NCBI GenBank assembly: GCA_031459855.1
Contig: JAVKHP010000001.1
Span: forward strand, 2,199,906-2,263,905
From: Armatimonadota bacterium
GTDB lineage: Bacteria; Sysuimicrobiota; Sysuimicrobiia; Sysuimicrobiales; Humicultoraceae
DNA: 64,000 nt
Reading direction: 5' to 3'
In this document: positions 38,695 to 43,748 of the stretch, piece by piece
Layout: each line of letters starts with the position of its first letter
Position numbering within the stretch: the stretch's first letter is position 1
The notes under the pieces: model-generated
Told to the model about the DNA's origin: nothing
Seen by the model: only the letters and a program-made list of their open reading frames with translations
Database searches by the model: none
Made by a program: the position numbers and the translations under genes

Positions 38695-40185
38695 ATGGCG
38701 AGAGAGGGACCTGCAGGTGCTCAGGGAAGAGGACACAAGGGAGGACACGAGGTGAGCATCACCCCCGCGGCCGCTGCGCGCGCGGAAGACGAGGCCGCAG
38801 CCTACGAGGCGTTCCTCGCCGCGTACCCGGAGTACGCCGACACGCGCCTGCTCGACGACCTGCGGGCCAGCGAGTACGCGCGGCTGGACGCTGTCGGGCA
38901 CGTCTACCTGGACTACACCGGCGCGAGCCTCTACGCCGCCTCGCAGCTGACCGAGCACCACGCGCTGCTGCGCCAGCGCGTGCTGGGCAATCCCCATTCG
39001 CAGAACCCCGCCTCGGCCGAGGCCACCGCGCTGGTGGAGGAGGCCCGCCAAGCGGTGTTGCGCTTCTTCAACGCCCCGCCCGAGGAGTACGTGGCGATCT
39101 TCACGTCCAACGCCACGGGCGCCCTCAAACTGGTCGGGGAAGCCTACCCGTTCGGCCCCCAAGGCCGCTACCTGCTGACCTTCGACAACCACAACTCGGT
39201 GAACGGCATCCGCGAGTTCGCGCGCGCCCGCGGCGCGACGGTGACCTATGTACCCCTGGTGCTCCCCGACATGGGCGTCGACGAGGCACATCTCGAGGCG
39301 CAGCTGCGGGCGGGACCGGGCACCGCCGGCCTGTTCGCCTATCCCGCGCAGTCCAACTTCTCAGGCGTGCAGCACGCGCTGGCGTGGATCGACCGGGCGC
39401 ACCACTACGGGTGGGACGTGCTGCTGGATGCGGCCGCGTTCGTGCCCACCAACCGGCTCGACCTCGGCCGGTGGAAGCCCGACTTCGTAGCGCTGTCGTT
39501 CTACAAGATGTTCGGATACCCCACGGGGGTCGGGTGCCTGCTGGCGCGGCGCGCGGCGCTGGCGCGCCTGCGCCGTCCCTGGTTCGCCGGCGGAACGATC
39601 ACCGTCGCCTCGGTCCAGGGCGACCGGCACTACCTGGCAGAGGGCGAGGCGGCCTTCGAGGACGGCACCCCGGACTTCCTGGCGATTCCCGCGGTGCCCA
39701 TCGGGCTGCGGCACCTCGAGCGCATCGGCCTCGAGCGCCTGCACACGCGCCTGCACTGCCTGACCGGATGGCTGCTCGACCAGCTGCAGGCGCTCCGGCA
39801 TCGGTCCGGTGCGCCGGTGGTGCGGATCTACGGCCCCACGACCACGGTTGGCCGGGGCGCTACGGTCACCATGAACTTCTACGACGCCCGCGGGCGGTTC
39901 GTGGACCACCGGGCGGTCGAGCAGGAGGCCGCGGCGGCGGCGATCGCGCTGCGCACGGGCTGTTTCTGCAACCCCGGGGGCGGCGAGGTGGCCCTGGGCC
40001 TGGACCGCACCGAGCTCGTCGCCTGCTTCAGCCGGCCGACCGACCGGTTGACCATGGAGGACTTCCGGCGGTGCATCGATGGCAAGAGCAGCGGCGCCGT
40101 GCGCGTGTCGCTGGGGATCGCCAGCACCTTCGCCGATGTCTACCGGTTCGTGGCGTTCGCACGCGGGTTCGTCGACCGGGGCTGA
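38695..40185 (+). CDS. Molybdenum-cofactor-sulfurase/cysteine-desulfurase-like PLP enzyme
   Basis: Class-V aminotransferase-fold protein (496 aa). YLDYTGASLYA near 85-95, SNATGALKL, the PLP-binding Lys271 in SFYKMFGYPTG, and a candidate sulfur-carrying cysteine in RTGCFCNPGGGE. These are features of the N-terminal domain of eukaryotic Moco sulfurase and of related bacterial proteins. It has no MOSC domain. Two starts compete: ATG at 38695 with GGGGAGG, which is in a hairpin, and GTG at 38752 with GGGAGG eight bases upstream. Since the window contains Moco genes, a sulfur-transfer role is plausible but unproven. Confidence 0.87.
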   Translation: MAREGPAGAQGRGHKGGHEVSITPAAAARAEDEAAAYEAFLAAYPEYADTRLLDDLRASEYARLDAVGHVYLDYTGASLYAASQLTEHHALLRQRVLGNPHSQNPASAEATALVEEARQAVLRFFNAPPEEYVAIFTSNATGALKLVGEAYPFGPQGRYLLTFDNHNSVNGIREFARARGATVTYVPLVLPDMGVDEAHLEAQLRAGPGTAGLFAYPAQSNFSGVQHALAWIDRAHHYGWDVLLDAAAFVPTNRLDLGRWKPDFVALSFYKMFGYPTGVGCLLARRAALARLRRPWFAGGTITVASVQGDRHYLAEGEAAFEDGTPDFLAIPAVPIGLRHLERIGLERLHTRLHCLTGWLLDQLQALRHRSGAPVVRIYGPTTTVGRGATVTMNFYDARGRFVDHRAVEQEAAAAAIALRTGCFCNPGGGEVALGLDRTELVACFSRPTDRLTMEDFRRCIDGKSSGAVRVSLGIASTFADVYRFVAFARGFVDRG

Positions 40186-40263
40186 GGGTGGGGGCACCGG
40201 CTGCCCCGGCGGGTGCGGACACGGCCACTCGCGGGTGCGGCGGGGCATGACGGGGCGTCATCC

Positions 40264-41730
40264 GTGACCCACCGCGCACGGGTGCGGTTCGAGCGCGGGT
40301 CGCTGCGGCTGGACTTGCCGTCCTCGGTCCGCATGCCGCCCTACTGCGTCTGGGACGCCCGCGTGGGCGCGTGGCGGACCGAGGCCATGCGCTACGGGCA
40401 GATCCGCGAGGACGCCCCACGGTACGGCCTCGACGTGGTGGACGAGGCGGCGCGGTTCTTCGACCTGCCGCCGCTCCGCCCGGTGCTCCCGTCGCTACGG
40501 CCCGACCAGCAGGCCGCCATCGACGCGTGGGAGCGCGCGGGCGGGCGCGGGGTGGTCGTCAAGCCCACCGGCACCGGCAAGACCGAGATCGCCCTGGCCA
40601 TCGTCGCGCGCCGCCGCGTCTCGGCGCTGATCGTGGTGCCGCTGCGCGACCTGATGTACCAGTGGCACCGTCGGATCCGCCAGGGCCTGGGGGTGGATGC
40701 CGGGTTGCTGGGCGACGGCCACCGCGCGATCTTGCCGGTCACGGTCACCACCTACGACAGCGCGTACATCCACATGCGGGAGATCGGCAACCGCTTCCGC
40801 CTGGTGGTCTACGACGAGGCCCATCACCTGCCGGCGCCGGCGCTGCGGGAGAGCGCGCTCGACTGCCTGGCGCCGCTGCGGCTGGGGCTCACGGCCACAC
40901 CCTGGCGCGCCGACGGCGCCGACCGTCTGCTGGAGACGCTGATCGGCCCCGTGGTCTACGTCGAGCAGATCCCCCAGGCGCGCGGCCGCACCCTCGCCGA
41001 CTACACCATCGTGCGGGTCCCGATCTACCTCACCGACGCCGAGCAGGCCGAGTTCGACGCGCTCTCCCGCCGCATCCGCCGGTACGTCGCGCGCTGGCGG
41101 CAGGAGCAGACCGCCCGGCGCGCGGCCGGCGGCGGCGTCCCCGTCGACCCTCCCGCGCCGTCCGCCTTCGACTGGACGCGCGACCTCGCCGTGCGCGCGC
41201 GGACCGATCCCGAGGCGCACGCGATCCTGCGGGCTTATCGGCGCAAGCTGGCCCTCGTGCACCGCTCGGCGGAGAAGCTGCGCGTGGTGGAAGATCTCCT
41301 GCGTCTGCACCCCGACGAGCAGATGGTGATCTTCACCGCGTCCGCCCGCATGGCCCTCGACGTGTCGGCGCGGTTCCTCATCCCGGCGCTGACCACGTCC
41401 TCGCCGGCCGAGGAGCGTCGCCGCGTGCTCGACCTGTTCGGTCAGGGGCGCGTGCGGGCTCTTGTGGCGTGCGAGGTCCTCAACGAGGGGTGGGACGCGC
41501 CCGCGGTGAAGGTCGGGGTGGTGCTGGGCGGCGAGAAGGGGACCCGCGAGGCCGTCCAGCGGCTCGGTCGGCTGCTGCGGAAGACCGGCGACCGCCGGGC
41601 GAGGCTGTACGAGGTGGTCGTGCAGGAGTCGCCCGAGGTGCGCCGGGCGCGACGGCGCCGCCACACCGATGCTTACCAGACAGCACCGCATCTATCACTG
41701 GATCAGGCCCGGCAGGGCGATCTCTTCTGA
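40264..41730 (+). CDS. XPB/Rad25-like DNA helicase
   Basis: Superfamily-2 helicase (488 aa). An N-terminal damage-recognition-like region (about 1-80, with PYCVWDARVGAWR) precedes motif I VKPTGTGKTE, motif II VYDEAHHLP, motif III LTATPWR and motif VI QRLGRLLRKTGDRR. GTG at 40264. The next gene, which overlaps its end by 62 bases, is the DUF790/Bax1-like nuclease. In archaea XPB and Bax1 form a helicase-nuclease pair for nucleotide excision repair. The layout here is the same, pointing to a bacterial counterpart. Confidence 0.9.
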   Translation: MTHRARVRFERGSLRLDLPSSVRMPPYCVWDARVGAWRTEAMRYGQIREDAPRYGLDVVDEAARFFDLPPLRPVLPSLRPDQQAAIDAWERAGGRGVVVKPTGTGKTEIALAIVARRRVSALIVVPLRDLMYQWHRRIRQGLGVDAGLLGDGHRAILPVTVTTYDSAYIHMREIGNRFRLVVYDEAHHLPAPALRESALDCLAPLRLGLTATPWRADGADRLLETLIGPVVYVEQIPQARGRTLADYTIVRVPIYLTDAEQAEFDALSRRIRRYVARWRQEQTARRAAGGGVPVDPPAPSAFDWTRDLAVRARTDPEAHAILRAYRRKLALVHRSAEKLRVVEDLLRLHPDEQMVIFTASARMALDVSARFLIPALTTSSPAEERRRVLDLFGQGRVRALVACEVLNEGWDAPAVKVGVVLGGEKGTREAVQRLGRLLRKTGDRRARLYEVVVQESPEVRRARRRRHTDAYQTAPHLSLDQARQGDLF

Positions 41731-42949
41731 TCGCCTGGAGCCCGACTGCCTGCCGCACCTGGTGCGCGCCATCGCGGTGTACCGGCGGCTGGTCGGGCGG
41801 CCACGGGCTCAGGTACGGGAGGCCGCGCGTCACGCGCTGGCGGCGCTGCGGCCCGACCGCGTGGAGGCGCTGGTGAAGCTCCTGGAGGATGCGGCCACCT
41901 ACGACTGGCCGCGGGGGCCCGAGGCGGCCGCACGCCGGCTGCGCCTCTTCGAGGCTGCCGCGCGCGAGCATCCCGTGCTCGACGCCGCACGCGCCGCCGC
42001 CCTGGTTGCGGACGTGGCGCAGGACTGGGCAGATGGAGGGGATGTGCGGTCGAGATCCGGTGTGCCCGCGCCGACCGGCGCCCGCGCGTCGAGCTCGCCG
42101 CGGACGCTGGTTTCCCTGCTCTACGCCGACTACCCCGAGTTCCACCGCCTGCGCGCCTTCCCTCCCGACTACACGCCCGAGGACCTGCGCGACGACTACG
42201 CGCTGGCCCAGGCGCAGGCCCTGCTGTACGATGCGGTGCGCGTTACGGTGGAGGCGACCGACGCCTTCGGCCACGTGGTGCGCGCTGTGCGTCTGGCGCG
42301 CCTGATCCACCAGATCGAACGGCTGCCGGCGGGCTACCGGCTGGTCCTCGACGGTCCCGCCTCGGTGCTGCGCCACACCCACGCCTACGGCGTGGACTTC
42401 GCGAAGTTCCTGGCCGCGCTGGTCGCGGTCTCCGGCTGGACGCTGACCGCTGAGATCACGTTGCGCAAGGGGTGGCGGCCGGTCCTCTTCGCCCTCTCCG
42501 ACGCCCACGGGCTCCGGTCCCGCGTGTCCCCGCCGGCGCTGTTCGACTCGCGCCTGGAGGAGCGGTTCGCCCGCAAGTTCGGTGCGGCCCGCGACGGCTG
42601 GCGGCTCGTGCGCGAGGGCGCGATCCTGGCCGCGGGCGAGGCACTGCTCGTGCCCGACTTCCTGTTCCGCCACGAAGACGGCACGGAGGTCGCCCTGGAG
42701 ATCGTCGGCTACTGGACCCCGGAGTACCTGGAGTACAAGTTCCAGAAGCTGAGCCGGGTGCGCGGGGTGAACCTGCTGGTGGCTGTGCGACCTCAGCTCG
42801 CGGCGCGGGCCGGCACCCTGCCCGCGACGGTGCTGTCCTTCCGCAGCGGCATCCTACTGCGGGACTTGCTGCCGCGGCTCGAGGCGTTCCGGCAGCAGGG
42901 CAGCCGGGCGGGGCTTGCGCAGGGACGTGCGGGTGATCCCGTAGGGTGA
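41669..42949 (+). CDS. DUF790/Bax1-like nuclease, partner of XPB
   Basis: A 426-residue DUF790 protein. The C-terminal third has a PD-(D/E)XK-like site: ALLVPDFLFRHEDG, then VALEIVGYWTPEYLEYK, giving the acidic and lysine residues of a metal-dependent nuclease. The N-terminal part is helical with LRARRL-type basic stretches, and DYTPEDLRDDYALAQAQALLY in the middle matches the family. It overlaps the helicase gene by 62 bases, strong evidence of joint production. In Sulfolobus the homologue Bax1 binds XPB and cuts bubble DNA. A Ser/Ala-rich stretch near 125-145 is an insertion. Confidence 0.85.
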   Translation: MLTRQHRIYHWIRPGRAISSDRLEPDCLPHLVRAIAVYRRLVGRPRAQVREAARHALAALRPDRVEALVKLLEDAATYDWPRGPEAAARRLRLFEAAAREHPVLDAARAAALVADVAQDWADGGDVRSRSGVPAPTGARASSSPRTLVSLLYADYPEFHRLRAFPPDYTPEDLRDDYALAQAQALLYDAVRVTVEATDAFGHVVRAVRLARLIHQIERLPAGYRLVLDGPASVLRHTHAYGVDFAKFLAALVAVSGWTLTAEITLRKGWRPVLFALSDAHGLRSRVSPPALFDSRLEERFARKFGAARDGWRLVREGAILAAGEALLVPDFLFRHEDGTEVALEIVGYWTPEYLEYKFQKLSRVRGVNLLVAVRPQLAARAGTLPATVLSFRSGILLRDLLPRLEAFRQQGSRAGLAQGRAGDPVG

Positions 42950-43149: not shown

Positions 43150-43695
43150 TTACGGGAGCAGGTCCGCCACGACCAGAGGGCCCAGCGCACAGAGCGGCAC
43201 GACACGGTCGTGCGCCCCCAGGCGCCGGATCGTGCGATAGGTGCCCTCCAGCGGGTCCCGGTAGACTTCGAGGACACGGTCGACCAGGTTGACGATCCAG
43301 TACTCGGGAATCATCGCCCGGGCGTAGAGCGCGAGTTTCCGGGTGCGGTCGAACTCGAGGGTGGTGTCGGCGACCTCGACCACGAGCGCAGCGGTGGTTG
43401 GGTGCTGCGCGGTGCGGCTCCGCGGGTCACCGGCGACGACGGCCAGATCGGGTTCTGGCTCAGAGTCGGCGCCGAGCGCAAGCGGCATCTGCACGCGGAC
43501 CGCCTGCTCCGGCCCCACGAGACGCAGCAGCGCGCGTTGGACCAGCTCCACCGCCGCCGCGTGGGCGGCGCTCTGGGGTGTCATCTCCACGATCTCTCCC
43601 TGGACCAACTGCACCCGGCTGCCCGGGTCGAATGCGCCGGCGCGCACCAGCCGCTCGTACTCGTCGCGTGTCCAGACTTTGGCCCGAACGGTCAC
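43150..43695 (-). CDS. Uma2-family (DUF820) nuclease-like protein
   Basis: A 181-residue PD-(D/E)XK-fold protein. EPEPDLAVV and LVVEVADTT supply the acidic residues and FDRTRKLALYARAMIPEYWIVN supplies the lysine and the typical family segment. These proteins are abundant in cyanobacteria and other Terrabacteria and have no firmly established role. GTG at 43695 has GGAGG six bases upstream; the longer in-frame extension is not needed. Tandem 13-base repeats lie just before it. It ends 200 bases after the XPB-Bax1 pair on the opposite strand. The gap 42950-43149 has only a GC-rich inverted repeat. Confidence 0.85.
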   Translation of the reverse strand: MTVRAKVWTRDEYERLVRAGAFDPGSRVQLVQGEIVEMTPQSAAHAAAVELVQRALLRLVGPEQAVRVQMPLALGADSEPEPDLAVVAGDPRSRTAQHPTTAALVVEVADTTLEFDRTRKLALYARAMIPEYWIVNLVDRVLEVYRDPLEGTYRTIRRLGAHDRVVPLCALGPLVVADLLP

Positions 43696-43722
43696 AGCCT
43701 GCCTCCGTACGTCCTCAACTAT

Positions 43723-43748
43723 AGAACATAGCATGAGAACATAGCATG
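43723..43748. repeat. Perfect 13-bp tandem repeat before the Uma2 gene
   Basis: AGAACATAGCATG occurs twice in direct succession (43723-43735 and 43736-43748). It is AT-rich in a GC-rich region and lies 28-53 bases before the Uma2 GTG, where a promoter would be expected. It may be a regulator binding site or a slippage product. Confidence 0.85.

Follow-up and report, generated by a model that had tools for sequence, protein, structure and literature searches.

An XPB–Bax1 helicase-nuclease gene pair in an Armatimonadota bacterium, with a conserved 62-nt gene overlap and a putative clamp-binding tail

The xpb and bax1 genes

The window analysed here, a stretch of 64,000 nt from the 3.19-Mb genome (4 contigs) of an Armatimonadota bacterium, contains two overlapping genes on the forward strand, which encode a helicase of the XPB family and a nuclease of the DUF790/Bax1 family. 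The features discussed below are as follows (clade A is the clade of the window pair, described in the next section).

40264..41730, + strand: xpb, encoding an SF2 helicase of the XPB family (488 aa when started at the GTG at 40264)
40285..40449, + strand: DNA damage recognition domain XPB_DRD (PF18458) of the helicase, 43 bits
41669..42949, + strand: bax1, DUF790/Bax1 nuclease, 426 aa, PF05626 matched at full length
41669..41730, + strand: overlap of xpb and bax1, exactly 62 nt, a length kept exactly throughout clade A, in two phyla
41713..41727, + strand: codons for the XPB C-terminal QGDLF, a putative beta-clamp-binding motif, the window form of QLDLF/QLDLL
42557..42739, + strand: nuclease-site residues E297, D330, E344 and K357 of Bax1 (E-PD-E with a migrated lysine)

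The open frame of xpb spans 40213-41730 (+) and includes an alternative upstream GTG at 40213, which would give a protein of 505 aa; the GTG at 40264 is the better start, because relatives start near it. The product matches the Pfam models XPB_DRD (residues 25-79 in the 505-aa reading), ResIII, Helicase_C and ERCC3_RAD25_C (the ERCC3/RAD25 C-terminal helicase domain PF16203, 28.9 bits), each above the Pfam cut-off. Its best matches among solved structures are the XPB proteins of S. tokodaii and A. fulgidus (E-values of about 1e-77 to 1e-74), and XPB chains score 254-264 bits against 39.5 bits for RadD; the closest solved relatives of the window helicase are XPB proteins, not other SF2 helicases. 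The bacterial equivalog model NF045503 of NCBIfam ("DNA repair helicase XPB") aligns over the helicase core with 159 bits, below its cut-off of 610, so that the window protein falls outside the type which this model names. It belongs to the XPB family all the same, in its archaeal form that is paired with Bax1. A single-sequence structure model of XPB (pLDDT 39) was set aside. A chance open reading frame or a wrong frame is ruled out by the Pfam matches and by an overlap frame that is common to other loci.

Bax1 matches PF05626 (DUF790) over residues 1-401 with 263.9 bits (cut-off 28.8), and its sequence matches among solved structures are archaeal Bax1 exclusively. In an alignment of 40 Bax1 proteins from five clades, all 40 have D330, E344 and K357 (numbered as in the window protein), and 39 have E297. 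E297, D330 and E344 align with E275, D305 and E318 of AfBax1, which constitute its metal site (PMC7293015). D154, located in the N-terminal Y-x-D interaction region, is kept in all 40 proteins. An AlphaFold model of Bax1 built from seven sequences has a mean pLDDT of 53.5, with residues 310-410 mostly at 65-84; searched with Foldseek, this model of pLDDT 53.5 returned archaeal Bax1 as each of its top 8 matches (E 1e-14 to 5e-18, TM about 0.45). A preliminary description of the locus, made from the DNA letters, had named a helicase with SF2 motifs and a downstream DUF790 protein that keeps a PD-(D/E)XK-like site, the two genes overlapping by 62 bases. All of these assignments hold, and the comparison with archaeal XPB and Bax1 that it proposed yields archaeal XPB and archaeal Bax1 as the best solved matches.

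The two genes are the sole XPB_DRD gene and the sole DUF790 gene of the genome. The uvrA, uvrB and uvrC genes, which the preliminary description had suggested looking for, are present as a complete uvrB-uvrA-uvrC cluster far from the pair, at positions 6216-13132 of contig C1. Upstream of xpb, on the same strand, a class-V aminotransferase (SufS/DndA-like) gene at 38695-40185 (+) ends 78 nt before the helicase gene. A SufS/DndA-like gene was not seen beside any other clade-A pair, and a search of the genome for DndC (TIGR03183) gave no match; a phosphorothioation module that includes the upstream gene was ruled out on these two grounds. On the other side, the pair adjoins a Uma2 (PD-(D/E)XK-like) gene at 43150-43734 (-). 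Uma2 accounts for 3 of the 43 flanking proteins scanned, the other two probably being those at L078:2067-2657 and L024:3691-4302.

Distribution, inheritance and related systems

DUF790 is present in 6 of the 36 genomes of the host phylum, and the same six hold an intact XPB_DRD gene. A seventh XPB_DRD match, in genome G020 (L086:4621-5036), consists of XPB residues 23-120 followed directly by Bax1 residues 366-407; it is the remnant left by an internal deletion, and the pair was therefore lost together. In the Rokubacteria phylum, DUF790 occurs in 15 of 81 genomes and falls in three unlike clades. The two-gene unit is also found on Deinococcus and haloarchaeal plasmids. Trees of XPB and of Bax1, a comparison likewise proposed at the outset, contain the same clades with full support; their archaeal sampling is thin, being composed of plasmid-borne haloarchaea and solved structures, P. 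furiosus Bax1 (8gy8) among them. The clade of the window pair, clade A, mixes the host phylum with Rokubacteria and comprises 15 distinct XPB–Bax1 pairs. Because the two trees match and clade A is mixed, the pair can be said to move as a unit, and these sequence relationships indicate that it has probably crossed phyla.

Two genomes of the Rokubacteria phylum should be noted separately. Genome G109 carries two unlike pairs (L037 and L048), a clade-A pair and a clade-B pair. In genome G055, the Bax1 encoded at L033:1498-2733 (-) fits the Pfam model far better, with 363 bits, and the tail of the accompanying XPB ends in ESALLF; this Bax1 may have been acquired separately or be a contaminant.

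The occurrence of the XPB–Bax1 pair in bacteria is in itself no novelty. In 2005, DUF790 was reported in Archaea and Cyanobacteria beside COG1061 SSL2 helicases (PMC1189080), and Deinococcus plasmids carry such operons as well. The preliminary description had named XPB–Bax1 as known from archaea; in bacteria, the pair is not unusual in itself.

The archaeal XPB–Bax1 complexes of known structure (S. tokodaii 6p4o and 6p4f, A. fulgidus 6p66 and, for Bax1, P. furiosus 8gy8) have in common with the window the DRD and two helicase domains, a DUF790 nuclease with an E/D/E site, adjoining genes and a conserved N-terminal Y-x-D region. Unlike them, the window pair resides in a bacterial host with a full UvrABC system, and its XPB extends 16 residues further over bax1, to end in a putative clamp motif. 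The Deinococcus plasmid operons are bacterial and share the gene content and gene order of the window pair, and their two genes likewise overlap at the ends. Their Bax1 proteins, about 30-36% identical to that of the window and placed in a separate clade in both trees, keep the catalytic residues, one copy having K for E at motif I, and their XPB C-termini, mostly ...NAPD or NAPH, are devoid of the clamp motif. The mycobacterial Mtb XPB is likewise a bacterial XPB helicase; it has a eukaryote-like N-terminal domain and does not show the DRD/thumb arrangement seen in A. fulgidus XPB, and as of the same report no bacterial Bax1 partner had been identified (PMC3353954).

The genes that flank the pair vary between loci, which rules out a larger conserved operon. 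In clade A, the flanks are mostly metabolic or transport genes, and restriction-type genes are isolated. On plasmid P1 of Deinococcus gobiensis, the pair (L030:3111-6870) follows a gene of the spore photoproduct lyase family, a UV-repair neighbour. Searches of phages and viral contigs gave no XPB–Bax1 matches, and a phage or viral origin was ruled out on this basis.

The patchy occurrence of the pair (6/36 and 15/81 genomes), its transfer between phyla and its plasmid location in Deinococcus and haloarchaea would suit a defence or selfish DNA-restriction module that resides on mobile elements and attacks foreign DNA. Such a module is also suggested by the similarity, at the level of the helicase, to PbeA (TIGR04095), a phosphorothioation-dependent restriction helicase of the Dnd/Pbe system that has a related SF2 helicase core; PbeA is not known to form a pair with Bax1. 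However, Bax1 matches no PADLOC model, DndC is absent from the genome, restriction-type genes are isolated among the mostly metabolic and transport genes of the clade-A flanks, the pair is absent from the phages and viral contigs searched, and a host-clamp tag, such as the putative one described below, would fit a repair factor at least equally well. In our opinion, a defence or selfish role is very improbable.

The gene overlap and the XPB C-terminus

Wherever both genes of a clade-A locus extend into the overlap, its length is exactly 62 nt, and this holds for ATG and GTG starts of bax1 alike. The haloarchaeal and Deinococcus overlaps measure 14 nt with few exceptions (1 nt in L062 and L072, a 40-nt gap in L070 and no overlap in L032), the 14-nt form being present at 9 of the 10 Deinococcus loci, all except L062. 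The length is about 29 nt in Rokubacteria clade B and 35 nt in L033. The relative frame is identical among all loci that overlap by more than 1 nt, and in a codon alignment the haloarchaeal N-A-D-G-stop faces D-A-Y-Q-... of clade A. Because the codons align across the old stop, the simplest history is a loss of the XPB stop and a read-on of 16 codons into bax1; that the change ran from 14 to 62 nt is an inference from the codons and not from a rooted tree. The clade-A extension thus encoded has 16 residues and overprints bax1.

Among the 15 distinct clade-A proteins, XPB ends in QLDLF in 12 cases, in QLDLL in 2 and, in the window, in QGDLF. None of the 25 XPB proteins outside clade A has an ending of this kind; the pairs of Deinococcus and haloarchaea are without the motif. 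QL[S/D]LF is the consensus for binding to the beta clamp (PMC3919608), and QLDLF is the strongest clamp-binding peptide (PMC11139829). The motif Q-phi-x-[L/M]-[F/L] is exact in 14 of the 15 clade-A proteins; the window QGDLF, in which position 2 is non-aliphatic, is the weakest form within the clade and reflects a change from CTC to GGC (Leu to Gly) that alters both XPB and Bax1. In peptide tests, Gly at position 2 lowers the affinity less than does loss of the Gln (PMC11139829). The DnaE1 protein of the same genome carries QTGLF near residue 916, the usual place, and a non-leucine position 2 is therefore apparently used by the organism's own polymerase.

Clamp-binding motifs are often found at protein C-termini. 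In the 36 genomes of the phylum, the DNA pattern for QxDL[FL]-TGA occurs 8 times; six of the occurrences are XPB ends, and the remaining two lie in short ORFs (19 and 76 aa). No other protein ending in QLxLF was found in the window's genome. Judged by its sequence, the clade-A tail looks like a beta sliding-clamp-binding tag; the literature searched contains no report of an XPB clamp motif, and other literature may differ.

Within the overlap, the first codon positions of XPB are the wobble positions of bax1, and drift is therefore expected there under bax1 constraint alone. The mean number of minority bases per bax1 wobble site is 4.9 downstream of the overlap, 1.55 within it, and 0.5 over the six codons that make up the motif and its stop. 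The wobble sites of these six codons total 3 minority bases. No count as low was obtained in 342 downstream 6-codon windows (mean 28.9, minimum 9), nor when six conserved codons were drawn 200,000 times; the sequences being related, the counts are not independent events, although the control windows were taken from the same set of sequences. Individual substitutions mostly follow the same pattern, that of the window being the exception. In L021 and L045, changes in the motif are silent in XPB and alter Bax1 (S to F and S to N), and the XPB change in L017 and L021 is F to L, which the clamp allows. The Bax1 codon that faces the XPB Phe/Leu encodes Pro in every protein outside clade A and Ser or Phe within it; Pro at this codon would destroy the F/L of XPB. 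Selection acts on the XPB reading frame along the motif.

The 18 nt over the motif are almost invariant across two phyla and the length of the overlap is fixed at 62 nt, as would also be the case if both were conserved for an RNA reason, such as a coupling or processing element, with no function for the QLDLF peptide. The substitutions seen there, however, mostly keep the XPB residues, being either synonymous (CAA, CTT, TTT) or the clamp-allowed F to L; moreover, conservation drops directly past the XPB stop, and the peptide fits the clamp consensus at the extreme C-terminus. We consider it improbable that an RNA element is the explanation; some nucleotide constraint from an RNA or coupling function could be present in the overlap.

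Proposed function of the pair

The reading that we favour, with a probability of about two in three, is that of a translationally coupled XPB–Bax1 helicase-nuclease which is tethered to the clamp at replication or repair sites and does not substitute for UvrABC. Archaeal XPB–Bax1 unwinds DNA and cuts near the junction of double and single strands, the physical complex and the structure-specific incision having been described for archaeal proteins only (PMC7293015, PMC7672443). By analogy, the N-terminal part of the window Bax1 would bind XPB, XPB would translocate along duplex DNA and open it, and the PD-(D/E)XK-type domain of Bax1 would cut near the double/single-strand junction. The stop of the older 14-nt overlap would have been lost in the bacterial clade to which the window belongs, with XPB reading 16 codons further into bax1. 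The tail QLDLF (QGDLF here) is predicted to hold the complex on the beta sliding clamp at sites of replication or repair synthesis, where the tethered complex may incise damaged or branched DNA, supporting UvrABC and recombination and not duplicating UvrABC. The motif is absent from the pairs of Deinococcus and haloarchaea, so the core activity of XPB–Bax1 would be independent of it.

Alternatively, the pair could be an ordinary horizontally acquired one, engaged in stand-alone excision repair with an XPG-like 3' incision, and the pentapeptide a by-product of the overlap. The domains and catalytic residues match those of the archaeal complex, uvrABC is also present in the genome, and the D. 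gobiensis pair adjoins a spore photoproduct lyase gene, all of which agree with such a role. However, the selection on the XPB frame across the motif argues against a by-product, and genetic data from archaea argue against a stand-alone route. Halobacterium NRC-1 carries an XPB–Bax1 pair on pNRC100, yet deletion of uvrA, uvrB or uvrC abolishes its dark repair of UV photoproducts completely (PMC1590041), and archaeal XPB/XPD deletions cause slight UV sensitivity only (PMC7776575). It is therefore doubtful that the pair duplicates UvrABC, and we regard the stand-alone reading as unlikely. The preliminary description had envisaged an additional excision-repair route beside UvrABC; UvrABC is present, as it supposed, but the separate route is its least supported step. 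In the literature searched, no cellular phenotype of XPB–Bax1 in a bacterium was found.

The putative clamp motif provides a concrete hypothesis for the recruitment of XPB–Bax1 to cellular DNA. On balance, we lean somewhat towards the view that the pair is a mainly archaeal repair helicase-nuclease adapted to bacteria by overprinting, in which the loss of a stop would have created de novo a 16-residue tail that ends in the optimal clamp-binding peptide and, with it, a replisome-tethered incision machine. If so, the pair would clearly illustrate how overlapping genes can give rise to a working docking peptide, here one that arose as the complex entered hosts with a different sliding clamp.

A clamp-tethered XPB–Bax1 would resemble DinG and RecBCD, a helicase and a helicase-nuclease with a predicted or actual link to the beta clamp. 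QLDLF is predicted in E. coli DinG (PMC12525004), and a contact between RecBCD and the clamp is described in PMC13254535. The nucleases there are unrelated to Bax1, and the motif is not made by overprinting a partner gene.

Two further features of the gene neighbourhoods may be recorded. A CcbP-type calcium-binding gene is located just upstream of three haloarchaeal pairs (L068:981-1334, L069:998-1351 and L070:964-1230), and the upstream position of two Deinococcus pairs (L065 and L066) is occupied by an Excalibur/metallo-beta-lactamase gene.
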